Below, piece by piece: positions 9,384 through 48,003 of a DNA stretch of 64,000 nt; position 1 is the stretch's first letter; each line of letters begins with the position of its first letter. This DNA comes from Perkinsus olseni (lineage: Eukaryota; Perkinsozoa; Perkinsida; Perkinsidae). A program made the translations under genes and the position numbers. A model generated the notes under the pieces. It made no database searches and had not been told where the DNA came from. It saw only the letters and a program-made list of their open reading frames with translations. The stretch spans positions 101,237-165,236 of the forward strand of contig JABANP010000077.1 of NCBI GenBank assembly GCA_013115135.1, written 5' to 3'.

Positions 9384-12300
9384 ATGAAGATTCTTCTGTG
9401 TTCAGTAAGGGAGATCTGTCGGACAACCTCTCGTTTCCGCAGCCTTCTTGATACATGCTCCTTGTTTTCTCGGCGTGCTCGCGGGCACGCCCTCCCGCGG
9501 TCCTTAGCGAGGTCGGCTGCTCCCTCGCTGTGGTCGGCAGTAGCGGCGTCTCAGCGATGCTTCTCGACCCGAGGCAATCTCCCGTTAGACCGAGTGAGGA
9601 ACATCGGCATCTCGGCTCACGTTGATTCGGGCAAGACCACGCTAACGGAAAGAGTACTCTTTTATACTGGTAGTAGGCGGCCTATCGCGTGCTATGGCGA
9701 GGGTCTTGTCGACCAGGTCGGATAGAAGATATTCACGAGATACAGGGCAGTGATGGTGTGGGGTGCAAGATGGACCACATGGAGCTGGAGCGAGAGAAAG
9801 GTGAGTCTGTCGTGCGACGGCATAGTGACCTTGTTGTTAGGCATCACCATTACTAGTGCCGCTACCTACTGCCAGTGGACGACCAAGGACAAGGATGACT
9901 ATCATATTAACATCATCGATACGCCTGGTCATGTTGACTTCACGTTCGAAGTTGAGAGGTGTGGTCCATAGCTGGTACTTAGAGGGGCGTCAGTTGCTCC
10001 CTTCCAGGTCCCTTCGAGTCCTCGATGGTGCAGTGATGGTGGTATGTGCTATAGGTTGCGTACAGAGTCAGACTGTCACAGTTGACCGTCAAATGCAGAG
10101 GTGGTTCAGAAAGGCTGATGTACGAAAGTTATGGGAGATTTCGAGGGTTTTAGGTATGAAGTGCCGAGGATTATTTTTATCAACAAGTTGGACCGGTATG
10201 GCTCTGAGCCATACACCGCATTGAAGCAGGTAGGCCACTGAGCTCAGAGATGGAGGGGAAACTCATATTTTCTTTCCAGCTCAAGACCAAACTTGGCCTT
10301 TGTGCGGCGCTCACGCAAGTACCCTTGGGTGCTGAGGATAAGTTTGCTGGTGCGACTGGAGTCGGCTGCGGCGTGCCATATCGGTGGTCTGCCAGGTGTA
10401 GTGGATGTGGTAAGAAGAGAAGCTCATCACTTCGAGGGCTACAAGGGTCTCTCGTGGAACACGACTGAGGTGGGCAGGCTAACCCGTTCCTTGTATCCGT
10501 GTGGAGCGTCTTTATTGGAAGGTGCCGGCAAAGCTGGTGGAACAGGTTGAGGAGACCAGGAAAGACTCTAGTGGAGCTGATGGCGGGTAGGTGGGACTCC
10601 CACCGTGGGATACGAAGCGGTGGTGAGCATGTGTGTTACGGTCAGACCTGGATGACGACCTTGCTGAGTCTTTCCTGGTGGACGAGAACGTCCCCGCGGA
10701 TGAGCTAGAGCGGGCCATCCGTCGTCAAACTATAGCGAGAAAGTGGGTACACGGAGCTTCCGTCGATGGAGATTGCATGGCTTGACTTTGCCGACAGATT
10801 CTGTCCGGTTCTGCTTGGGTCCGCGTATAAGAATAAAGGGGTACAGCCTCTCCTGGATGCCGTATGTAAATACCTGCCGAGCCCTGGCGATAGGTAGTTG
10901 GGTGAGCATCAGCCCAGTTGTCTTCAATACTGTTTGATATCTTCGTCGAGGGCTGCCATCGCATCCTCTCACAATCGAATGGCGTCCTTATAGTTCCACA
11001 GTTAGTCGTTGGTCTCCTGTTTCCCGTCAGAACCTACAGTGGTTACGACCAGTCACGTAATGCAGAGCGTGTAGAGATAACGCCTGATGAGAAGAAGCCA
11101 TTCTTGGGTAGTCGTCAGTGCTGCTGCTGCTGCTTCTCGTTCCATGCAGTGCGGGAGGCACCCGTCATCAGGTATGGCCTTCAAGAGCCAGGATCTTCCC
11201 CCCAACGGCACTCTAACGTACATGAGGGTTTACCAAGGCAGTTTGAAGAAAGGTCAGAGCGTAGTGGACACCAAGACCAACAAACGGCAAAGTCTTAAGA
11301 AGCTGGTCGGCTGCGGTCACAGCCGTACGCCCTCATCATCCTCTTGTGCAGCTCCGTCTCCACTCGAGCGAGACCAGGGAGGTCACTTCAGCCGGTCCTG
11401 GGGACATAGTAGCGTGCACAGGCCTGGACGTCTTCTCTGGAGTTACCTGTACTGATGGTGAGAGGATAGGCGGTGCGGCGTCTATTCGTGGTAGCGGCCT
11501 TGCGGCTGTAGGTAAAATAAACTGGACCATGTCCCCATTACACATCCCGGCCCCGGTGGTGTCATTGTCGATCTCACCGGCTAGCCGAGAGGATTCTACG
11601 AAGATGGCTAAGGCTCTGGCGAGGTTCAAGAGAGAGGACCCCACCTTTATAGTGTCGACAGATCCTGGCACGAAGGAAACCATTGTGTCGGGTGGGGGAA
11701 TCCTGCTGTTGTAGTGGTACCTGGCCTACACGGTGCGGACTCAGGAATGGGAGAGCTGCATCTCTTCATTTACGCCGAGCGCATCCGTCGAGAATATAAT
11801 GCTAATGTCACCACTGGGGAGCCTAGGGTTAACTTCCGTGAGGCGATTAATGAGAGGGTACTGAGCTGTTGTTGATTCGTCATCTCTCTCTTTGAAGTCT
11901 AGGTTGTAGGTGCCGTTTGACTATACTCACAAAAGGCAGAGTGGCGGTCGCGGTCAGTACGGTAAGGTGACCGGCTATTTTGAGCCGCTGAGCTACGATG
12001 AAGTACAAGAGATCCTTACGAAGTATCAAGGCGAGATCACTCCTATGAATGCCTCTAAGTACCTGACTATATTCCAGAACAATATCAGGGTGAGAAATGG
12101 TGGCACCGGGGGTTGAACCTGCGTCGGACACTTTCTAGCTTGGTCTGGCTGAGCCGCATTCTTAGCCGCATGTCAGGGAAATGAGATCCCCAAGAACTTC
12201 ATTGCGTACATTGAGAAAGGTTTCCGAGAGTGTCTGGAAGAGGGCCCGCTGACGGGCTCGGCTGTCTGCAATCTGCGGATAGTGCTAGAGGGCGGCAAGC

Positions 12301-12839
12301 ACCATGAGGTTGACTCTTCGGAAGTCGCCTTCAAGGCAGCTGCCCAGGGAGCCTTCGAGCAAGCATTCTATGGTGGATCGCCTACCATCCTGCAGCCAGT
12401 CATGTAAGACGCCTAGGGGTGGTTGTGGTAGCTAACCGTGCGTTGAAGCTAGGGCGCTACAGCTGACCTCAGCTTGTGTGTTGTGAGGGTTCGAGCTCAG
12501 GAATGTGGAAGTACTGTCCCAACTGACAAGACTGGTTCGCTGATGTCTGGTATCACTGTGAGGAAAGGCCTGGTCACGGGGTCGGAGGCCTTGACGGACC
12601 TGGATACGCTCGTCCGAGCTAAAGGTCCCTCTGAGGAACATGTTCGGCTTCACAACAGAGTTGAGGTCTATCACACAGGTGGGGCTGCTGTCAGGAGGGT
12701 GGCGTGAGTGTACTGATAGGGTCATGGTGAGTGGGCGATGGACTTCCATGCCTACGAGGAGATGCCGGCCGATGACCAGGAGTCAGTCAAGAAGCAGTAC
12801 GTCCAGCGGCGAGCGAGAGAAAAGAAGCTCGAGGAGTGA
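9384..12839 (+). CDS. GFM1: mitochondrial translation elongation factor G (EF-G1), 19 exons
   Basis: GTPase that translocates tRNA and mRNA on the mitochondrial ribosome. The protein starts with an Arg/Ser/Ala-rich N-terminus of about 70 residues, a probable mitochondrial presequence. The G1 motif AHVDSGKTT follows, then [13 protein letters not shown] (G3), NKLDR (G4), the domain II region ([18 protein letters not shown]), [32 protein letters not shown], and a C-terminus [17 protein letters not shown]. Exons: 9384-9669, 9717-9800, 9841-9958, 10008-10100, 10154-10229, 10280-10349, 10396-10469, 10522-10586, 10646-10742, 10798-10893, 11031-11107, 11172-11305, 11352-11457, 11512-11691, 11745-11857, 11910-12089, 12177-12403, 12501-12678, 12720-12839. 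The conserved frame needs one base skipped at 10561-10563 and at about 12621-12625, and is one base short at about 12511. Otherwise full length with a clean TGA stop. Confidence 0.93.
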
Positions 12840-15895: not shown

Positions 15896-16734
15896 CTTGT
15901 ACTGTCTCGATGATGTTGCGTTGTTCAATGGTCGTTGGGTTGGAGTTTGTAGGAGTTTAGTAGTTTGTTTGTGGAATTTTCTCTCTCAAATTGATGCAGG
16001 TCTGTCTCGGGTATCGGCTGAGCAGCAGCTTCGAGTGGTTGCCTTTTGGGACTCACCTCTCCCCTAGCGCTGAACTCAGACTGTGCGTTATCCGTTATAG
16101 CTTTTTCCCACTTTTTGAATGATGTATGCGAGAGTTTTGGCTTTCTCTCTATTTCTTTCGTAGCCTTTTGGAAACGGCTATAACTTTCTTTGCGTTATCA
16201 TTGAGTGATCGGCCAGTGGTCGTCTAAGTTATTAGCTCGTTGTTCACATCCGCCATCCTTGTTTTCGCGCGGTTCCGCGACGGTTTCGTTATCCATCGGC
16301 CGCTCGCCTGCACGCACGTGCAATGATTTTCGCCATGGTTGAGAATCTTCGTAGTGCGGGGTTGCTTAAGTGCATCTCTCCCCCACGTCATGCTACCTCT
16401 CAGCCATCGCATTCTCCCGGTTTGTCGCAGGTCTACCCCTCTTCGGGTGCAGTAACTTACTCTCTCCATATAGGTGTGGTCAGCTGACTCGGCTCTTACT
16501 TCCCTTCTCATGTTTCACTGCTATCGGCTTCCGAGTCTCCTGGTCTGCTCTCGCTCGGTTCCTCGCGGCTTCATTGTTTCTGTCGCGGCTTCCTATGAGA
16601 GGGGCTCTCCGTCGTGGTTGTGCATGCGTGCATTCCGCACGCACGTGTCACCGGCTCATTCGCTCCGCCTCGTGCGCCTTGACAGCCTATGACTGCCTCC
16701 TTTCAGTTACGAACCCGTTTATAACTCGTTCTTA
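15896..16734. promoter_or_regulatory. upstream region of the fumarate reductase gene
   Basis: 839 bases with no supported gene. The sequence is pyrimidine-rich on the plus strand, especially 16360-16735, with T-rich stretches at 15950-16200. Such tracts would suit a 5' UTR or splice/trans-splice acceptor region for the gene at 16735. I see no TATA-like element that I would defend. Confidence 0.35.
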
Positions 16735-18194
16735 ATGTCTTCTCCCCCCAAGAGAGCCATCGTTGTTGGCGGGGGTCTCGCGGGCTTCAGTGCAGCTAAC
16801 ACCATCCTGGAGGCTGGCGGTCGTGTACTTCTACTCGACAAGTCGGCCTTCTGCGGAGGGAACTCCTCTAAGGCCACGTCGGGTATCAACGGCGCCGTGA
16901 CTAAAACGCAGAAGGCGTTGAATGTTCAGGACTCTAATGAGCTCTTCGAGTCAGACTGTATGAAGGGTGGTGCTAAGCACCCTGAACTTGTCAAGGTTAT
17001 GGTCGAGAATTCCGGTGCCTCTGTCGACTGGTTGATGGACAACTTCGACTTGGACCTTTCTCTTTTGGCCCGCCTCGGTGGTCACTCTGTCGAGCGTACT
17101 CATCGTGGTAAGGAGAGGTTCCCTGGCATGACCATCACCTATGCCGAGATCCAGATGGCTGAGGCTATCGCCAAGAAGTTCCCTGACAGGTGTGAGATCC
17201 TGAACAAGTGCAGGGTTACCAAGCTGCTCACTACCCCTAATGGTGATGTCAATGGCGTGCAGTACACCACTAGGAAGGGAGACGTCGTTGAGGAGTATGG
17301 CCCTGTGATCCTTGCCACTGGTGGCTTTGGCGCCGATTTTTCGGAATCTGGCATTCTCGCCAAGGTCCGCCCTGATCTACTCAAGTTGTCAACCACTAAT
17401 GGCGAGCATTGCACTGGTGATGGTATCAAGATGGGTCAGGAGATCGGTGCCCAAACCGTTGACTTGGACTTTGTTCAAGTTCATCCCACTGGTTTGGTCA
17501 ACCCCAAGGACCCTGATTCGAAGGTGAAGTTCCTAGCCGCCGAGGCCCTTAGAGGTGTAGGTGGCATACTCCTGGACTCTAATGGTAAGAGGTTCGTTAA
17601 CGAGCTTCATCGTCGTGACTATGTGTCCAACACTATGTTCAAGAACAAGGCCCCTTTCAGACTTGTACTCAACAGCAAGTCTGCTCAGGAGATCCACTGG
17701 CACTGTGAGCACTATAAGGGTCGTGGTGTCATGAAGGAGTTCAAGACCGGTCGGGATCTGGCGAAGGAGATGGGTATCAGTCCCTCCGTTCTGGAACAGA
17801 CCTTCAAGGAGTACAATGAGATTATGAAGAAGCAAATTGCTGATCCGAACGGGGGACCCTATGAGGCCTACCCCTCTGGCAAGACCCATGATCCCTACGG
17901 CAAGAAGTTCTTCAAGGACTACCCCATGTCCGTCGACGATACTTTCCAGGTGGCCATTGTTACTCCTCTGGTCCACTACACGATGGGCGGGTTGAAGATC
18001 AACACCTTCGGCCAAGTTCTTGGTGCCAAGAACAAGCCAATCAAGGGTCTCTACGCTGCCGGTGAGGTTATGGGTGGCGTCCACGGCAACAACAGGTTGG
18101 GCGGCAACTCCCTTCTTGACTGTGTGGCCTATGGTCGCGTTACCGGTAAGCACTGTGCCTCTGAGGTGATGAAGCTCAAGGCATCTGATGCAGT
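16735..18194 (+). other. fumarate reductase flavoprotein module 1
   Basis: FAD_binding_2 type module, frame 1. It contains the Rossmann motif VVGGGLAGFSAANTI at residues 7-21, CGGNSSKATSGING, HRGKERFPGMTITYAE, VQVHPTGLVNPKDP, NELHRRDYVSNTMF and MGGVHGNNRLGGNSLLDC. If translation stayed in this frame it would stop at 18324 after about 40 unrelated residues, giving a free single-module enzyme like soluble yeast-type fumarate reductases. Confidence 0.9.
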
Positions 18195-21100
18195 CCCCAC
18201 TCAAGGATCTCAAGGAAGGTCGCACTACTCCCAACGTGCGTGCTATCGTGGTTGGTGGTGGTCTAGCTGGATTCTCGGCTGCCAACACTATCCTAGAGAA
18301 CGGTGGCAATGTCATCTTGCTTGACAAGTCGGCCTTCTGTGGTGGCAACTCTTCCAAGGCTACTTCGGGTATTAATGGTGCTTGTACCAAGACTCAGAAG
18401 GCTCTGGGCGTCAAGGACTCCAAGGAACTCTTCTACAACGACTGCATGAAGGGAGGTGCGAAGCATCCCCACCTGGTCAAGGCGATGGTCGACAACTCTG
18501 GGTCTTCAGTGAACTGGTTGATGGATAACTTCGACCTGGATCTTTCCCTTCTTGCTCGCCTCGGTGGTCACTCTGCGGAGCGTACTCATCGTGGTAAGGA
18601 GAGGTTCCCTGGTATGACTATCACCTACGCCGAGATCCAGATGGCTGAGGCTATCGCCAAGAAGTTCCCTGACAGATGCCAGATCATCAACAAGGCCCGA
18701 GTCACCGAGTTGCTCACTGCCAACGGTACCGTTGTCGGCTGCAAGTACACTGACAAGAAGGGTCAAGTCCACGAGCAGAAGGGCCCGGTCATCTTGGCCA
18801 CTGGTGGTTTCGGTGCTGACTTCTCTCCGGATGGGATCCTGGCCAAGGTCCGACCCGATCTCTTGAAGCTGGCCACCACTAATGGTGAGCACTGCACTGG
18901 TGATGGCATCAAGATGGGCACTGCTGTTGGGGCGCAGACGGTGGACTTGGAGTTCGTCCAGGTGCATCCTACCGGTCTGGTGAACCCTAAAGACCCTGAG
19001 GCTAAGGTGAAGTTCTTGGCTGCCGAGGCTCTGCGTGGTGTTGGTGGCATCCTTCTTGACGCTGATGGCAAGCGCTTCGTCAATGAGCTCCATCGTCGTG
19101 ACTACGTCTCGAACACCATGTTCAAGAACAAGGGGCCGTTCAGGCTGGTCTTGAACTCTTCGTCGGCCGAGGAGATCCACTGGCACTGTGAACACTACAA
19201 GGGCCGCGGTGTGATGAAGGAGTTCGCCAGTGGCAACGCTCTTGCTCAGGAGATGGGTATTGAACCTTCTGTTCTCGAGCAGACGTTTAAGGACTACAAC
19301 GTGGTCATGAAGAAGCAGATCGACGACCCCGACAACGGTCCGTATGAGGCTTATCCTAGCGGCAAGACCCACGATTCCTTCGGGAAGAAGTTCTTCAAGC
19401 CCTACCCTATGAAGATGGATGATAACTTCCATGTGGCTATTGTTACTCCACTCATCCACTATACGATGGGTGGCTTGAAGATTGATGACGCCGGGCGCGT
19501 TCTCGGTGAGGGCGACAAGCCTATTGAGGGTCTGTATGCTGCTGGTGAGCTCATGGGTGGTGTCCACGGCAACAACCGTCTTGGCGGTAACTCGTTGCTG
19601 GACTGCGTGGTGTATGGTCGCCTCAGTGGCAAGGACTGTGCCACGTATATGATGAAGGGCAAGACCAGACCGGTGCCTTTGAAGTGCCTTAAGCAGGGGC
19701 TCACCAAGGATGTCAAGACAGTTATCGTCATTGGTGGTGGTCTTGCTGGCTTCTCTGCCTGCAATACAGTCTTGGAGAAGGGTGGTCAGGTGCTTTTGCT
19801 TGACAAGTCGGCCTTCTGTGGTGGTAACTCCTCGAAGGCTACTTCTGGTATCAATGGTGCTTGCACTAAGACTCAGCAGGCTCTTGGTATCAAGGACTCC
19901 AATGATCTGTTCTACTCCGACTGTATGAAGGGTGGTGCCAAGAAGCCCGATTTGGTCAACGCCATGGTCCAGAACTCTGGTGCCTCTGTCAACTGGTTGA
20001 TGGACAACTTCGACTTGGACCTTTCTCTTTTGGCTCGCCTCGGTGGTCACTCTGTCGAGCGTACTCATCGTGGTAAGGAGAGGTTCCCTGGTATGACCAT
20101 CACCTACGCTGAGATCCAGATGGCTGAGGCTATCGCCAAGAATCACCCTGACAAGTGCAAGATCATGAACAAGGCCCGTGCCACCAAGCTGCTGACTGGA
20201 GAAGATGGCTCTGTCACAGGTGTCGTGTACGAGACCAAGGACGGCCAGACCCACGAGGCCCATGGTCCAGTTATTTTGGCAACTGGCGGTTTCGGTGCTG
20301 ACTTCTCTCCTGATGGAATTCTCGCCAAGGTTCGCCCTGACTTGCTCGGTCTCTCTACCACCAACGGTGAGCATTGTACCGGCGATGGCATCAAGATGGG
20401 TATGGAGGTTGGAGCCGACACTCTCGACTTGGAGTTCGTACAAGTCCACCCGACGGGTCTAGTTAACCCCAAGGATCCCAAGTCAAAGGTGAAGTTCCTC
20501 GCCGCTGAAGCTCTAAGAGGTGTGGGTGGTATTCTGTTGGATGCCGATGGAAACCGCTTTGTCAACGAGCTTCATCGTCGTGATTACGTCTCCAACACCA
20601 TGTTCAAGAACAAGGGCCCCTTCAGACTTGTACTCAACAGCAAGTCTGCTCAGGAGATCCACTGGCACTGTGAGCACTACAAGGGTCGTGGTGTCATGAA
20701 GGAGTTCGCCACCGGTGCTGCCTTGGCTGCTGAGATGGGCATTCCGACATCTAAGCTCGAGCAGACCTTCAAGACGTATAACGAGGTCATGCAGAAGCAG
20801 ATCAAGGACCCCGATGGAGGCCCGTATGACGCCTACCCCTCAGGCAAGACCCATGATCCCTTCGGCAAGAAGTTCTTCAAGGACTACCCCATGTCGGTCA
20901 ACGACACCTTCCAAGTTGCCATTGTCACACCCTTGGTGCACTATACCATGGGAGGTCTCACCATTGACCCGAAGGGGCGTGTCCTAAACAAGAGCGGCAA
21001 GGTCATCAAGGGTCTCTACGCTGCTGGCGAGGTCATGGGAGGCGTCCATGGCAACAACCGGTTGGGAGGCAACTCTCTTCTGGACTGCGTCGTCTATGGT

Positions 21101-23043
21101 CGTCTCACCGGTGCGGATTGTGCCACTTACGCCGGAGCTGACGAGCCGGTCAGCTTGAAGCAGCTGAAGACCACAACATCTGCCCCTGCTGCTGCAGCTG
21201 CTCCTGCCGCTCCTGCGAAGGCCGCTCCCAAACCTGCCCCTGTGGCCGCCCCTGTTCCTGCCGCCCCCACTGGTCCTGCTCCCGATCACTATGACCGATG
21301 TAGCCAAGCACAATACCAAGGATGACTGCTGGGTCGTTATCAATGGTGATGTCCTCAACGTCACCGACTTCCTTCCCGACCACCCCGGTGGAGACCTTGC
21401 CATCATGACTTTCGCTGGTAGAGATGCCTCGACCGAGTTCAACATGATTCACCCGCCGGATGTCATCGAGAAGTACGCTCCGGAGTCTGTACTCGGTCAA
21501 GTGGGTGTTGCTCCAGCTGGTGGCGCTGCCGCTGCTGCCGCTGCTCCGGCTGCACAGGTGGCTCCAGCTGCTGGTGGTGGTATCGCCTTTGGAAGATGTG
21601 GGTAAGCACAACACCAAGGAGGATTGCTGGGTGGTTATTAACGGCCAAGTCTTGGATGTCACTGAGTTCCTACCCGACCATCCTGGTGGTGAGCTTGCTA
21701 TTCTCACCTTCGCTGGTCGTGACGCTACCCACGAGTTCAATATGATACATCCACCAGATGTCATCGAGAAGTATGCCCCGGAGGCTATCATTGGAGAGCT
21801 CGGTGTTGCTGCCCCTGCTGGTGCGCCGGCTGCGGCCGCAGCCCCTGCTGCTCCTATTCCCGCCAACGGCAAGACCCTAGAGGAAGTCGCCAAGCACAAC
21901 ACCAAGGAGGATTGCTGGGTGGTTATCAATGGACAAGTTCTGGACGTCACAGAGTTCCTTCCTGATCATCCTGGCGGAGATCTGGCTATTCTCACCTTCG
22001 CTGGTCGTGACGCTACCAACGAGTTCAACATGATCCACCCGCCGGATGTCATCGAGAAGTACGCTGCGGACTCTATACTCGGTCCTCTGGTACAGGCTGC
22101 AGCCCAGCCTGCTGCTCCTGCTGTCGGTGGAGGACTAACTCAGCCCCTGCTGGCTGATCCCAAGGTTGCCAAGGAGCAATGGTGGGGCGAGGACCGCAAC
22201 ACTGCTGTCATGCATGGTCCATTAGGGGAGTCAATGTACTCTTACTGTGCTGGGGTGTTCTACTTCGCCTGGCTATTGATCTTGGAGACTCTGAAGACTA
22301 TCTTCACGGTGAAGAACTATAAAGTCATTCACGACAAGTCTGGACTGACTAGGTCTGCTATGTTCTTGATCGTGTTCGTGATTATTCACGGTCTTGGTAA
22401 TCTTCACTGTTTCTTCGGGCCTGATCACTTTAATGGGTACGCCTACTTCCTCAACCACCCATGCCCTTGGAGTGCTCTTCTTCTACCAGTCGAGATCTAC
22501 CTCCTAGCCGCTGGTCTCCTCCACGTTGCTGTTGGTCTGGTTCGTACGTACAAGTTCAAGACTATCAACACAGCCTTTGATCAGCTGTGGCTCATTGTCA
22601 CTGGAGTGGTACTCCTTGTGTTCCTAATCGTCCACTTGATGCAGTTCCGTCTTGTTTCCGAGGCCGGTGCTCCGCAGTACTACTTCCGTGCTAAGTGGAT
22701 GTATCCCTTCTTCTGTGACAAGTACGACACTTCGTGTGAGGTGGTTCACTTCAAGGATCTATATAAGTTGGAGTTCCAGATCTTCGAGCACTTCGGATGG
22801 GTCTGCTTCTACCTTGTCGGTGTCACCTCCTTCATCCTTCACGTCAGAGAGGGTTTGAGGAAGGTCATCGCCGCTCATCCGTCAGTCCCGAGGAAGTACA
22901 AGGGTAGGGCCACTACTATCGGCAATATCGTCATAACATTGCTGGGTCTCATCTATCTGTCCTATCCTATATTCTGTTACTTCGCCCCTGTGAAGAGTTG
23001 GGCTAAGTACGATGAGGAGATGATTCAGCCAGGCACACCATAG
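16735..23043 (+). CDS. fused membrane fumarate reductase: 3 flavoprotein + 3 cytochrome b5 + cytochrome b modules
   Basis: A 6.3-kb coding region without introns, about 2,100 residues if read as one polypeptide. In order: three FAD-dependent fumarate reductase modules of about 480 residues (16735-18194, 18200-19680, 19720-21130), an Ala/Pro linker, three cytochrome b5 modules, and a C-terminal anchor with about six membrane segments. Each flavoprotein module has the FAD-binding GGGLAGFSA motif, HPTG, the active-site region NELHRRDYVSNTMF and HYTMGGL. No iron-sulfur subunit is present, so electrons would plausibly pass from quinol to the cytochrome b, then b5 haems, then FAD and fumarate (inference). 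Modules 1/2, 3/b5-1 and b5-1/b5-2 are in different reading frames, each offset by one extra base in the linker (18195-18198, 21281-21283, 21588-21590). Modules 2/3, b5-2/b5-3 and b5-3/anchor are in frame. The ATG at 16735 directly precedes the first FAD motif, so no obvious presequence is seen. Confidence 0.88.
18200..19680 (+). other. fumarate reductase flavoprotein module 2
   Basis: Same motifs as module 1, in frame 2. The frame has an in-frame ATG at 18188, 48 bases before the FAD motif, so independent initiation is conceivable. Amino-acid identity to modules 1 and 3 is high by eye. Its synonymous sites differ more from module 1 than module 3 does in the shared central blocks. Confidence 0.9.
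19720..21130 (+). other. fumarate reductase flavoprotein module 3
   Basis: In frame with module 2, joined by a short linker (LKCLKQGLTKDVKTV). It is followed by an Ala/Pro-rich flexible linker at 21170-21285. All catalytic motifs are kept, including HPTG and HRRDYVSNT. Confidence 0.9.
21291..21490 (+). other. cytochrome b5 module 1
   Basis: Cytochrome b5-like haem domain in frame 3: VAKHNTKDDCWVVINGDVL, then the HPGG haem-ligand motif (PDHPGGDLAIMTFAGRDA) and the second histidine in FNMIHPPDVIEKY. One extra base relative to the preceding module. A second Ala/Pro linker follows. Confidence 0.9.
21589..21800 (+). other. cytochrome b5 module 2
   Basis: Same haem motifs (HPGG, FNMIHPPD) in frame 1, one extra base relative to b5 module 1. 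It is nearly identical to module 3 over the haem core, which suggests recent duplication or conversion. Confidence 0.9.
21870..22085 (+). other. cytochrome b5 module 3
   Basis: In frame with module 2. It starts KTLEEVAKHNTKEDCW and keeps HPGG and the second His in NMIHPPD. It leads directly into the membrane anchor. Confidence 0.9.
22140..23043 (+). other. SdhC/FrdC-like cytochrome b membrane anchor
   Basis: About 300 residues with some six hydrophobic helices. The motifs HGLGNLHCFFG, FNGYAYFL, AAGLLHVAVGLVRTYKFK and LIVHLMQFRL resemble the single-subunit cytochrome b558 (SdhC/FrdC) family of bacterial succinate/fumarate dehydrogenases, with several candidate haem-ligand histidines. The translation ends with a TAG at 23041-23043. 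Assignment to the b558 class is from motif recall and should be tested by profile search. Confidence 0.75.
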
Positions 23044-24144: not shown

Positions 24145-25365
24145 TTATGAAGCGAGTGGAAGGAAATTCGCCGCAAGCATGCAACGGGCACTTCCCCCCG
24201 ATATCTCAATCGTCGTCAGAGGCACCGGCACGACCTCAACGTACTTACCGAGAATGGCGAGTTGGGGTTCAGTCAGTGACGCGAATGCTGTTTCCGAGAG
24301 CACCAGCCGATGCACCCCATCACAGCCCCGGAGCTCAAACGCGTTCCCGGCGAAGTTATCGACTTGGCTTAAAGACAGCGGTATGATCTCCTTCCCTGTA
24401 TCCATCAACTTCGTTTGCAGCCGAGCTTTGTCTTCCTCGTCTTTCACAGAGTCCAAACACACCAGCGCGAAATCGGTTCCCACAGTGAGCATGACATTAG
24501 TGTGGTAGATAGGGACATCTCTGGCGTCAAGTGCAGAGAACGATACAACCTCGTAGTCAGGGAAACGACTGCCCCACTGAGCCAAACCCTCGCTGGTTGC
24601 TCTCTGCGAGAGAGCTACATATACCACTCGGTTTGGAGAATCGAAGACCAACGCACCTGTCCCTTCTAAAAACGACCCTGTTTCTTCCAATCTAGAGAAG
24701 TCCACGGATCGTTTGACGTTGTAGCCCAGCCATTGTAGCTGAGCTAGTAACCTGTTTAGTAGCCGGCGTTCTAGACGACGGGTAGGAGCGAGCATGGGGT
24801 AGATGACGAACGTACCATCAGCATGAGTAGTGAACCAGTTATTAGGGAAGATGGCATCGGGCTTCGGAGGCTGTGCGACGTCCTGCAATACAGTTACTTC
24901 AACCTGAGATGGCTCAACAGTTGTCGATTCAACTGAACCGCTAGAGAATTGAATGCCTAGCCTTCTTCGAATCAGACCCTGAATAATCTACGGGCGGCCC
25001 GAACTACGGGACAGCGCGGTGAATACGGCGATCCCTCTACGCTAGGGCACGGTGAATACGGCGATCCCTCTTCGCTAGGGCGCGGTGAATACGGCGATCC
25101 CTCTTCGCTAGGGCGCGGTGACTAGCGACACGCGAGGCACATTTGCACCATCGAGTCGTGACAACAATGAGTCGAGGCTTAACTTAACAGTATCCCGCAG
25201 AATGCTGACGAAGTTGTCGAACTCTTCTTGGGCCTTCAGAAGGAGATCTCCCTGATCCATCCCAACTGCGGTCTGGAACGCGTTGTCAGCTGCGGTCTCA
25301 GGGTTCGAATAGAATACAGCTGGACGAACCATGATAACCGCTGAGGGTGATTGTTGGCAAGACAT
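24145..25365 (-). CDS. CtlX-type guanidino-group modifying enzyme (amidinotransferase superfamily)
   Basis: Two exons, 25365-25141 and 24903-24145, joined in phase 0 over a 237-nt intron. The product is about 328 residues. The N-terminus reads SAVIMVRPAVFYSNPETAADN, then QPPKPDAIFPNNWFTTHADG, GSFLEGTGALVFD, IYHTNVMLTVGTDFALVCL, DNFAGNAFEL and finally ISGGSARCMLAANF, with the likely catalytic Cys. These blocks match citrulline-utilisation hydrolase (CtlX) and arginine-deiminase-related proteins, which act on guanidino or ureido groups. The exact substrate is unknown. The start MSCQQS gives no clear targeting signal. The intron carries a 33-bp tandem repeat. The frame is intact throughout. Confidence 0.88.
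25014..25121. repeat. 33-bp minisatellite, about 3.2 copies
   Basis: Unit starts at 25014, 25047, 25080 and a partial at 25113 (GCGCGGTGAATACGGCGATC...). Copies differ at one or two positions. It lies wholly within the single intron of the CtlX-like gene. Confidence 0.92.
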
Positions 25366-32247: not shown

Positions 32248-35203
32248 ATGTCCGTATTCGTGGCATGTGGGAACATCTTCCTATACCTTATGATACTCTC
32301 CTGGTACGAGTTGGTATCTGCGCAGATCCCGTGTGATGTGAGACACGGGTCGCACATCGCTAGCGACTGTCAGTCGCCGGCTGGTGTTAGCCGATCTTCT
32401 CAGCCGTCGATAGACGTTTCATGTTGTGGTGCTGGACAACGTTTAGACTCCTCTGCAGACTGCAAAAACTGTTCGAGAGGGCAATTCCAGGTGAGTAGTT
32501 GAATTGGAATATTCGACACCGGCAGGATTCGAACCTGCGCGGGCTGAGCCCATTGGATTTCAAGTCCAACTCCTTAACCACTCGGACACGATGTCTCTGT
32601 TTCTGTGGTGTACTGTTTCGACTGGCCCCGTCCTCAGCCACTTCCAGGACAATCGACCTGCTTCCCTTGCCTACCAGGATCGTACACTGATTCAGAAGGA
32701 CAGAGATCGTGCAAGCCCTGTCCCATCGGGACGTACGAGTCCAATTCTGGTGAGGCCACAGCCGGCCGCCGCGGCAGATGCTCGGACAAAGTCTTTCCTT
32801 TCGACTGTCTTCCGAAGATTGAACGCAAAGTGCTTCTACTTTCCCTTGAGGAACTGCCTGTCAGGGTCGTCTGGTTGCACACCTTGTCCTGAATCGGAGA
32901 AGCGGAAGACGATAGGCCCGGCCACACAGTCTGCGCAAGGGTGTGTGTGCGCAGAGGGATACTTCGTCTCCTACCCTACCCCTGAGGGGTTACTCCCTGT
33001 CTATGGACCATCCAACAGTAGCGAGCTTGCACCGTGCGAGGCATGTCCCGAGAGAATGACCTGCAGAGGCGGGGCAGAGTGGCGTGGTGAAGGTTCTTCC
33101 AGGGTAATAGAACCACGGGATCTTCAACCTTCCCGTCCATCCAGTTGTTGGAAATTGGGTTCGTTCAGGTTGCCTACCACGCCCGTCCATTGGTACCATC
33201 CGGGAACTGGGCTACTCCAACAGACCCTTTCAGGCTTCGGAAGTGCCTCAGCGGAAGAGAATGCCCAGGCGGTGATCCACAGAGGCGGACCCGCTACGGT
33301 AGGCTCGCCCAGCGTCGTTCGTGAATCAGGCCCAATAGGAGACCTGTGCTCGGACCATCGTCTCGGGTTGGTATGTGCTCTGTGTGACTCCGGGTAGGGC
33401 AGTATCGTCGCTCTGCGACCTCGCCATGTTACCTTGCATGATAGATTCTATCACAGCGGCGGGGGATGTGCCCAATGCAGCGGATCAGACAGCATCATTC
33501 TGCCTCTCGTGATCCTCTCGATCATAGTGGTTTACCATCTGACCTACAACCTCATGAATCGGGAAGTCCAACAAGTGCGTCCCGTCCGTTCTTCAGGACG
33601 ACCTCGAACCTGCGTGGGAGGGGCACAGATATCCTCATTCGCTCAGGCCGTGACTGCTGACGTATCAATAGCGATGTCCATCGGCTCACTGGTCACATAT
33701 CTTCAACTCATCGCCTTATTCTCGGAGATCGGCTTTGACTGGTCCAGCGAAGTAGGGCTGTAACAGCCTTGCCTCTGGTCACTCCTATCATGTGGCTCAG
33801 ATATCCACACTCCTGGACATTGCAAAGATATCGCTCTTCAATTTCGACATCCTCAGACTCGAGTGCTTCATGGACGGGCCTCAGCAGAGCCTCTGGCGAT
33901 ACCTCACGGGTTTCGCTCCTGCCCTATGCAATCATAATGTCGGTTGGCAACCAGGGATACTCAGACTGTCGCGTATTCGAGCGCGCCTCTTCCGACTTCA
34001 CTCACTGCTTCGGTATGGCCGAATAAAGGTGTCCATGGAGAGTCAAACTTCGGAAGATCGACCCGAACACTGCCTCCGATGTGTGCCTGTCTGTTAATAT
34101 TGCTGCAGATATATTTGGCTGTTCTATCTCTTTGCCCGTGGTTCCAATGTAGCGTGGAGACTGGGAGTGACGAGAGACAAAACTATCAATATGACCGGCC
34201 AAGTGAGACGTTGAACAACCTGCGTCCGTTCGTCTGCCCCTAGCGCTACTTTCGGGCCATCGGTCTCCTCATCGCAGGTCATATGCGTGATGCTGCTGGC
34301 AATGGTCTCAACAGCCGTGGCCCCCTTCCAGTGCTACTCCCATAACGACCTCGGAGACCGCAGCCTCGTACGGTACCCCGACATCGAGTGCGGCTCCAAT
34401 GACCATCAAGCAAGTCCCGCTTAGTGCTCCCTGAGCCCCCCAGCTACCGCCGCCCTTCTCAGATTATGGTCGCGGTCGGTGTGGTATCATCCATCCTCAT
34501 CATCGTCTTTCCTTATATTCTGTTACCAGTTGAACCGTTGGGCTGGTGATGAGCTATCAGGCGAGCGTGGCGCTGCCTTCAGCGTTCGGTATCGCTTCCT
34601 CTTCTACCGACTGCGTCAAGACCGCTACCAGTTTGGCCTGTGGATGATGCTCCGTAACGTAGCCCTCGCCTTGGTCCCAGTCATCCGACCAGACGACCCC
34701 TACATCAAGCTACTCCTCTTCGCGCTCTTCGGTGGTGCAGGCCTCGGGGCGCTCAGTGCTTTTTCTGGCCGTGGCGCACGAGCATGGCCAACGTTTGTGA
34801 CCTCGCTTGCATGCTACTCATCATCTTCGTCTCTGCTGCAGCATCATTCTTCATCCCAGAGGTCGTCACTGTCGGTCCCGACGGTTACAAGATCGCGCTC
34901 ATAGTCTTCTTCTTCCTCGGGCTCTGTTACCTGTTGGTTCAGTTGGGGTACTTTCTCTATCTGCTACGCGATAGAGGCCCCCTCGGCATCATATGCGATG
35001 ATGTGGACCTCAGGCATGAGCTCAACGGCCTGTGGAACAAAGTGATGCTGGTGTGCTCTAAGGACAAGTCTGGCTATGACTTCACTGAGGAGATGAACCA
35101 ATACGAGCTCCGCCGTCTATCACTCTTGCTTGGTACGACTCACGTCTCTTCCAGTGCACTCGCGATGATTCGCCGGAAACTCTACTGTCGTTGTGCTGCC
35201 TGA
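32248..35203 (+). CDS. GCC2/GCC3-type cysteine-rich multi-pass membrane protein
   Basis: A signal peptide (MSVFVACGNIFLYLMILSWY) is followed by an ectodomain with repeated Cys-rich GCC2/GCC3 (ephrin-receptor-like) modules: CKNCSRGQFQ joined to CFPCLPGSYTDSEGQRSCKP, CPIGTYESNSG, CTPCPESEKRKTI and CEACPERMTC. A first membrane helix follows (SIILPLVILSIIVVYHLTYN), then several more between about 33650 and 34970, including VALALVPVIRP, IALIVFFFLGLCYLLVQLGY and related segments. The tail is cytosolic and ends RRLSLLLG... near 35203. Large proteins of this layout are common in alveolates. Function unknown. Introns include 32491-32637, which contains an antisense tRNA gene. Several exon joins and the exact C-terminus are uncertain; an open frame continues to 35483 in another phase. 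Confidence 0.7.
32514..32595 (-). tRNA. tRNA-Ser(TGA)
   Basis: 82-base class II tRNA on the minus strand. A 7-bp acceptor stem pairs GACATCG with CGGTGTC. The D-arm contains the A-box-like CCGAGTGGTTAAGG, the anticodon loop CTTGAAA carries TGA, the variable arm is long (TGGGCTCAGCCCG) and the T-arm contains GGTTCGAATCC. The discriminator base is G, typical of tRNA-Ser. It sits inside an intron of the plus-strand GCC2/GCC3 gene, transcribed in the opposite direction. No CCA is encoded. Confidence 0.95.

Positions 35204-45812: not shown

Positions 45813-48003
<2,191 letters not shown>

Follow-up and report, generated by a model that had tools for sequence, protein, structure and literature searches.

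Fused fumarate reductase, cytochrome b5 and b558-like domains in a gene family of Perkinsus olseni

Known fumarate reductases and the Perkinsus locus

Several described enzymes resemble parts of the fusion considered here. Complex II and quinol:fumarate reductase (SdhABC, FrdABC) perform the job proposed for it and possess the di-haem b558 domain that its own membrane domain, with four intramembrane His, distantly resembles. They are, however, composed of separate subunits, among them the SdhA/FrdA flavoprotein and an iron-sulfur subunit, whereas the fusion has a single chain, predicted cytochrome b5 haems and several FAD heads. Yeast Osm1/Frd1 has its FAD head and active-site residues in common with the fusion; it is a single soluble domain without b5 or membrane part, and the chain of known structure (PDB ID: 5glg) is 471 residues long. 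In Shewanella, Fcc3/Ifc3 together with CymA display, as is proposed for the fusion, a FAD head wired to haems fed by membrane quinol. There, the haems are of the c type and N-terminal, the enzyme is periplasmic and the quinol oxidase is separate; in the fusion, the b5 haems are instead C-terminal of the heads and joined to the membrane domain. Flavocytochrome b2, a soluble lactate dehydrogenase flavoenzyme with a single b5, likewise joins a b5 and a flavoenzyme in one molecule, between which electrons are passed, and proteins with single FAD_binding_2 and Cyt-b5 domains exist in fungi and other eukaryotes. Kinetoplastid FRDg is another multi-domain eukaryotic fumarate reductase, with an ApbE-FRD-cytochrome b5 reductase organization and NADH as donor; its description includes neither a b5 haem array nor a b558 domain (PMC8065229). 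Among the matches listed in the open-access literature, no description of a fumarate reductase-b5-b558 fusion was found.

The window, a stretch of 64,000 nucleotides of P. olseni DNA, harbors the following features:

16705..16706, + strand: putative 3' splice acceptor AG (spliced-leader or cis), TTTCAG, 28 nt 5' of the ATG
16735..18195 (end approximate), + strand: fumarate reductase module 1, frame 1 (PF00890, E 9.9e-80)
~16756-18114, + strand: FAD_binding_2 of fumarate reductase module 1
18188..18205 (approximate), + strand: frame break 1, frame 1 to frame 2, in a linker, overlapping frames
18218..19645, + strand: fumarate reductase module 2, frame 2 (PF00890, one of two frame-2 copies)
19688..21145, + strand: fumarate reductase module 3, frame 2 (PF00890, frame-2 ORF residues 512-964)
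~19721-21079, + strand: FAD_binding_2 of fumarate reductase module 3
21146..21296, + strand: Ala/Pro-rich linker with frame break 2, frame 2 to frame 3 (break ~21265-21291)
21297..21503, + strand: cytochrome b5 module 1, frame 3 (PF00173, E 1.6e-23; HPGG and second His)
21504..21594, + strand: Ala/Pro/Gly linker with frame break 3, frame 3 to frame 1 (break ~21575-21594, overlapping frames)
21595..21810, + strand: cytochrome b5 module 2, frame 1 (PF00173, one of two in the frame; HPGG and second His)
21874..22089, + strand: cytochrome b5 module 3, frame 1 (PF00173, best stretch 139-210)
22177..23043, + strand: b558-like C-terminal membrane domain including the stop codon (TIGR02046, E 2.6e-12)

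The three FAD-binding fumarate reductase modules and three HPGG-type b5 modules of the earlier, sequence-only reading are recovered by the Pfam scan as three FAD_binding_2 and three Cyt-b5 domains, with scores far over the gathering thresholds. The module repeats are in register, with spacings of ~1,480 nt and 288-298 nt.

At least four further genes of the same plan are found in the genome. Two of them, C67a and C70a, are each one open frame: one encodes FRDx2-b5x3-b558 (1,589 codons from the ATG, 1,605 stop to stop) and the other FRDx4-b5x4-b558 (2,718 and 2,788 codons, respectively). Furthermore, b5 arrays joined to a b558 domain without any FAD head are present in C70c, C67c and two genes on contig C75.

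Domains of the fusion and its paralogs

The FAD heads are, by profile score, of the Osm1/Frd1 kind, i.e., of the flavocytochrome c type (TIGR01813), and not of the SdhA/FrdA type. Window module 1 scores 388.5 bits against TIGR01813 (cut-off 285.45), and modules 2 and 3 together 773.7 bits; module 1 stays under the cut-offs of TIGR01812 (169.5 bits, cut-off 567.3) and TIGR01176 (91 bits, cut-off 932.7). The best PDB match is Osm1 (5glg), with E 5e-87 for the single sequence and 1.9e-105 with a profile. His250, Glu270, Arg273, Arg294, His414 and Arg454 (numbering of window module 1) are invariant in all ten aligned modules, out of 16, and they align with the same residues in Osm1 and in Ifc3 (PDB ID: 1qo8); we take this set to be the active-site residues.

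The b5 modules are assigned to the Cyt-b5 family and carry both axial-His motifs (HPGG and second His, 19/19 modules of the five FRD fusions), which suggests haem binding. The pair formed by modules 2 and 3 matches PF00173 with E 3.2e-52, and module 3 matches PDB 4b8n (E 1.5e-28) and flavocytochrome b2 (3ks0, E 8e-22). The earlier proposal that b5 haems stand at the place of the iron-sulfur subunit agrees with the Pfam scans, in which no Fe-S domain is detected in the window pieces or in the two intact paralogs. A separate Fe-S partner protein may nonetheless exist.

The C-terminal membrane domain appears to be a distant relative of SdhC/FrdC, the di-haem b558 subunit of complex II. The SdhC/FrdC-like character ascribed to it earlier is retained at this distance: TIGR02046 (sdhC_b558_fam) matches the last 288 residues with E 2.6e-12, and the score of 46.8 bits lies below the curated cut-off of 96. 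All eight paralogous b558 domains match this profile, none in the genome exceeding the cut-off. Pfam Sdh_cyt gives E 1.7 on the window copy and matches four of the eight domains (best E 0.0099); on the b558 PDB chain itself it reaches E 9.5. A profile of the eight domains matches PDB 9lay_C with E 1.8e-6. In the window copy, hydropathy and alignment reveal six hydrophobic segments and four invariant intramembrane His. These residues (H71, H116, H153 and H222) are distributed singly over hydrophobic segments 2-5 and are kept in 8/8 domains; their conservation argues that the b558 domain carries electrons and is more than an anchor. Six segments exceed the hydropathy threshold in five domains, and four do so in the other three. 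The predicted structure of b5 module 3 with the b558 domain, from the window alone, is poor (mean pLDDT 49.7, pTM 0.35).

Pattern scans for relatives returned 131 stretches in prokaryote genomes and 89 in viral contigs for the b558 domain, and seven in viral contigs for the FAD head, none of which was confirmed. These scans are weak evidence of absence, because the patterns were built from the present paralogs and run on prokaryote and viral sequences alone.

The tested modules, including the seven of the window, are under purifying selection as judged from substitution ratios. Of 19 module pairs, 16 have a finite dS, and these give dN/dS of 0.06-0.20 (0.086 for window module 2 versus module 1), some ratios being rough because several dS exceed 1. 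The three pairs with saturated dS yield pN/pS of 0.15, 0.32 and 0.37.

Proposed electron path and cell location

The explanation we favor, at roughly even chances as a whole, is a family of giant membrane-anchored quinol:fumarate reductases. In these, a single chain combines two to four FAD heads and a membrane domain of the di-haem b558 type with between three and six cytochrome b5 domains, which sit on flexible Ala/Pro arms. Electrons would enter the b558 domain from membrane quinol, and the tethered b5 haems would gather them on the cytosolic side, taking over the part of an iron-sulfur subunit. The b5 haems would then swing to any free FAD head, as do the lipoyl arms of pyruvate dehydrogenase, and the head reached would turn fumarate into succinate. 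Haem binding, electron direction, quinol as donor and the cytosol-facing location are inferred. A more specific version, which we hold as possible and lean against, has the one-chain enzyme extramitochondrial and cytosol-facing, with swinging b5 arms linking one di-haem membrane entry to two to four heads. Such arms would do for electron transfer what lipoyl arms do in pyruvate dehydrogenase, and module duplication would tune the number of heads and haems.

Ubiquinol is, by its potential, a poor donor for fumarate, which counts against quinol as the source. Moreover, NADH-cytochrome b5 reductase is a common electron source for b5 domains, its classical acceptors, and the donor could therefore be something other than quinol. 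In that version, the tethered b5 domains would be reduced by a separate NADH-cytochrome b5 reductase and would feed the FAD heads, while the b558 domain would serve as an anchor or as a side route for electrons to or from membrane quinone. The paralogs without FAD head favor this version, as they suggest that b5-b558 works as a unit by itself. The kinetoplastid NADH-fumarate reductase has a fused b5-reductase domain (PMC8065229). However, Pfam detects neither an ApbE nor a cytochrome b5 reductase domain in the window pieces or the two intact fusions, and the conserved intramembrane His speak against a mere anchor. We consider the NADH-fed version rather improbable.

Regarding location, the FAD motif follows the first in-frame ATG by 10-14 residues in 5/5 genes. 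This leaves no room for a presequence and makes a cytosol-facing membrane likelier than the respiratory chain, although an upstream coding exon may precede this ATG. SdhA- and SdhB-like exons are encoded elsewhere in the genome, each exon match being under the whole-protein cut-off; the SdhB-like exons form four stretches on contig C445, none over the cut-off. Since a presequence has no room and these exons exist, a mitochondrial respiratory role is disfavored. As judged by eye, a CAG that may be a splice acceptor stands 18-28 nt 5' of the ATG in all five family genes, and spliced leaders of the dinoflagellate/Perkinsus type are present in the genome. A spliced-leader relic of a retrogene was rejected, as no leader-like match occurs across the window at ≤3 mismatches.

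The K/R-rich loops TM1-2, TM3-4 and TM5-6 of the present domain agree with the orientation common in b558 proteins, which places the catalytic side in the cytosol. If the first hydrophobic segment were transmembrane, however, the positive-inside rule would place the N-terminal domains on the non-cytosolic side. This fits badly with the absence of a signal peptide; for the quinol model, the first segment would have to reside within the membrane or at its surface.

Frame breaks and the standing of the family

The earlier claim that no stop interrupts the modules does not hold for the window copy. Its coding path follows frame 1 from 16735 to ~18195, frame 2 to ~21285, frame 3 to ~21590 and frame 1 again to 23043, the first three frames being closed by stops at 18324, 21325 and 21605. 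The three breaks, over 6.3 kb, are each +1 and each inside a linker. Contig C825 carries a 99.4% identical copy of the first two heads, in which FRD1-FRD2 are in one frame without break 1. The synonymous to non-synonymous substitutions between the two copies are 5:1 before this break and 8:1 after it; both sides are therefore constrained. Given this copy and the two open paralogs, the FRD-b5-b558 fusion is, on comparative sequence grounds, genuine as a family, and the breaks in the window probably reflect errors of assembly or recent indels, as opposed to a functional state. The single-gene fusion proposed earlier thus stands in the two paralogs with a single open frame, while the window sequence itself is interrupted.

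A decaying pseudogene in the window, with the unbroken paralogs alone functional, would account for three breaks in one gene, and breaks also occur in C67b (two), C70b, C67c and both C75 genes. Yet random decay should strike domains as well, as it does in C67b and C70b, and the window breaks all fall in linkers. Active-site and haem residues as well as low dN/dS are kept on both sides of the breaks, and the near-identical copy is free of break 1. Whole-gene decay is disfavored by the constraint seen on either side of break 1, and we regard it as quite unlikely.

Programmed +1 ribosomal frameshifting, in the style of Perkinsus mitochondria, could also join the frames: the window, C67b, C70b, C67c and the second C75 gene have eight frame changes between them, all of them +1. 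In Perkinsus mitochondrial genes, conserved frameshifts are described, and some of these fall at proline codons (PMC9550989). The locus, however, lies on a nuclear-type contig of 165 kb, break sites differ between paralogs, and two paralogs have no shift at all. The first C75 gene has three frame changes, one of which is not +1, and both breaks comparable with a second copy (break 1 in C825 and the C67c break in C765) are missing there. Such frameshifting is very improbable.

Introns are rejected at break 1, where the C825 coding sequence is contiguous, and at break 2, where the single AG within 21201-21300 sits at 21219, so that no canonical intron can end in the break zone. At break 3, a very short intron is only unlikely, because AGs adjoin it. 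That the modules are separate genes or intron-separated, as the frame switches at module borders and an ATG close to where frames 2 and 3 begin might suggest, deserves hardly any credence, since two paralogs are single-frame and breaks 1 and 2 offer no intron.

If the fusion works as proposed, it would be a quinol:fumarate reductase without iron-sulfur subunit, made of one chain and possibly extramitochondrial, wired within itself where other organisms build the enzyme from separate subunits. It would represent a second solution for connecting a flavin head with a quinol site in the membrane. The family, with two to four heads and three to six haem domains, would offer a natural series for testing tethered electron delivery, and would be relevant to the disposal of electrons by a Perkinsus-like protist under oxygen shortage.

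FAD heads, b5 modules and membrane domain

Three FAD-binding fumarate reductase modules and three cytochrome b5 modules had been read from the sequence alone, and Pfam bears out both counts:

16735-18324, plus strand: one FAD_binding_2 copy within this stretch
18188-21325, plus strand: two FAD_binding_2 copies within this stretch
21291-21605, plus strand: one Cyt-b5 copy within this stretch
21460-23043, plus strand: two Cyt-b5 copies within this stretch

The FAD heads (FRD) also score above the cut-off of TIGR01813 (flavocytochrome c), and their best solved relative is the yeast "Fumarate reductase 2" (5glg, E 5e-87). All ten modules aligned, out of the 16 heads of the five fusions, share without variation the residues that correspond to the active-site His/Glu/Arg set in Osm1 and Ifc3. 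A second Osm1 entry, 6ku6, departs from 5glg at the Arg aligned with R294 and looks like a catalytic-mutant entry. A b5 module aligns with the host-origin cytochrome b5 4b8n and with flavocytochrome b2 across both axial-His motifs. In the paralogs C67a, C70a, and C70b, the linkers between b5 modules are 18-53 residues long with 56-78% Ala+Pro, the last one, ahead of the membrane domain, being less extreme (33-43%). These Ala/Pro linkers resemble the arms on which the lipoyl domains of pyruvate dehydrogenase E2 sit.

The SdhC/FrdC-like character proposed for the C-terminus would be a distant one: the last 288 residues match TIGR02046 (E 2.6e-12), under its curated cut-off, and Pfam Sdh_cyt yields little signal from these b558-like domains. 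All eight paralogous b558 domains match TIGR02046, likewise under the cut-off. A profile built from eight b558 domains reaches the b558 chain 9lay_C of the PDB at E 1.8e-6, versus only E 9.5 for the window domain by itself. The latter displays six hydrophobic segments, the last five forming the TIGR02046 stretch; by hydropathy, all six are above threshold in five of the eight family members, and four in the other three. One invariant His lies in each of segments 2 to 5, a fifth (H94) in the loop behind segment 2, and two invariant Cys in the loop behind segment 4. Domains of the b558 type have a usual membrane orientation, which the loop charges suit, loops 1-2, 3-4, and 5-6 being Lys/Arg-rich and loop 2-3 not.

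Frame breaks

The sequence-only reading found no stop between modules, which is wrong for the window sequence: the coding run passes from frame 1 to 2, to 3, and back to 1, each change being +1 and within a linker. A copy of window 16667-19752 on contig C825 is 99.4% identical and carries heads 1 and 2 in one frame; it diverges past the 19752 copy end, and the comparison covers the first break only. Between the two copies, head 1 has five synonymous changes and one non-synonymous, head 2 eight and one. In paralogs C67b and C70b, the frame changes fall inside domains; C67b has a further change close to its end. Frame changes are +1 in eight of eight cases in the window gene, C67b, C70b, C67c, and the second C75 gene (window, L035, L036, L039, L040); the first C75 gene has three changes, one of them not +1. 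Contig C113 was omitted from the count because its gap looks intron-like. Two breaks can be compared with another copy, window against C825 and C67c against C765, and in both cases the other copy lacks the break. The breaks are best explained by assembly errors of the insertion type or by young indels.

Gene family and genomic setting

The assembly (61.5 Mb, 968 contigs), whose contig C745 holds the 64-kb window, was searched with the b5-b558 part, one FRD head, and TIGR02046, and the loci were then read; all counts are lower bounds.

Fusion genes and their numbers of FRD, b5, and b558 domains
Window gene: 3-3-1
C67a: 2-3-1; single frame, 1,605 codons stop to stop
C67b: 3-3-1
C70a: 4-4-1; single frame, 2,788 codons stop to stop
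C70b: 4-6-1

These five genes total 16 heads and 19 b5 domains, the partial C825 copy not being counted, and Pfam confirms two FRD plus three b5 (C67a) and four plus four (C70a) in the intact paralogs. At least four headless paralogs (C70c, C67c, and two on C75) join b5 arrays to the same b558 without FRD, with 2, 5, at least 3, and 8 HPGG motifs (L037 minus, L036 minus, and the two genes of L040). Possible simpler relatives are found on C177 (L043, minus), with a single head followed by one b5 in a different open frame, and on C113 (L042, minus), with a lone head and an intron-like gap.

In a tree of 18 heads, leaving out C70b head 3 and C113, the window heads form a clade of their own (98/100), as do the C67 heads (96/97); at C67 and at C70, heads of the two adjacent genes interleave, first with first. 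This pattern suggests that heads were multiplied or homogenised at each locus before whole genes were copied. The dN/dS is 0.06-0.20 in 16 of 19 module pairs, those with finite dS; in the remaining three, dS is saturated and pN/pS is 0.15-0.37. In all five fusion genes, 10-14 residues separate the first in-frame ATG from the GGGLAGF motif behind it, with a CAG 18-28 nt upstream of the ATG (a count with no chance control beside it); a coding exon further upstream is formally possible.

A 22-nt spliced leader occurs at 146 genome places at ≤1 mismatch, versus none for the reversed control, and a pattern shorter by one base at one exact place, versus none; both patterns are of the dinoflagellate/Perkinsus type. 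Two leader types resembling the dinoflagellate leader are described for P. marinus (PMC3101222). Other window features are:

24145-24888, minus strand: dimethylarginine dimethylaminohydrolase match (DDAH_eukar, E 2.5e-74), downstream neighbour of the fusion gene
32514-32595, minus strand: tRNA-Ser (TGA), the sole tRNA gene found in the window
46958-47695, minus strand: phosphoglucomutase/phosphomannomutase domains I and II, partial open frame

A 2-kb segment (window 10605-12649) recurs at 95% identity on C825 (L033 7965-10000), directly behind the second FRD head; either the copy is rearranged or the contig is chimeric.

Proposed electron route and known systems

While the modules and residues of the fusion can be read directly, we infer its haem content, electron direction, donor, membrane, and oxygen dependence. 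Electrons probably run from quinol through b558 and b5 to FAD and fumarate: the b558 haems would receive them from quinol, the tethered b5 haems would ferry them to the FAD heads, and the heads would reduce fumarate to succinate. The main rival has NADH feeding the b5 domains through a separate b5 reductase. The quinol-driven route would liken the fusion to quinol:fumarate reductase and to the Shewanella flavocytochrome c3 system.

The ApbE-FRD-Cytb5R plan of kinetoplastid FRDg, as outlined in PMC8065229, is not seen in the window gene or the two intact paralogs. Two EST studies list fumarate reductase clusters of Oxyrrhis marina, best matched by Heterocapsa and Perkinsus, in gene redundancy and expression tables (PMC3942190), and a Cyt-b5 count of 12 in a Pfam domain table of P. 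marinus ESTs (PMC2868825). Pieces of such proteins may thus have been seen before without description of the architecture; no such description appears among the open-access papers listed by literature searches on the subject.

The fusion differs from complex II in two features that define membership, the flavoprotein type and the Fe-S subunit. Elsewhere in the genome, exons resembling SdhA lie on C101 and others resembling SdhB on C445, as exon matches, none above whole-protein cut-offs; the FRD-b5-b558 family thus appears to exist beside complex II, in addition to it.
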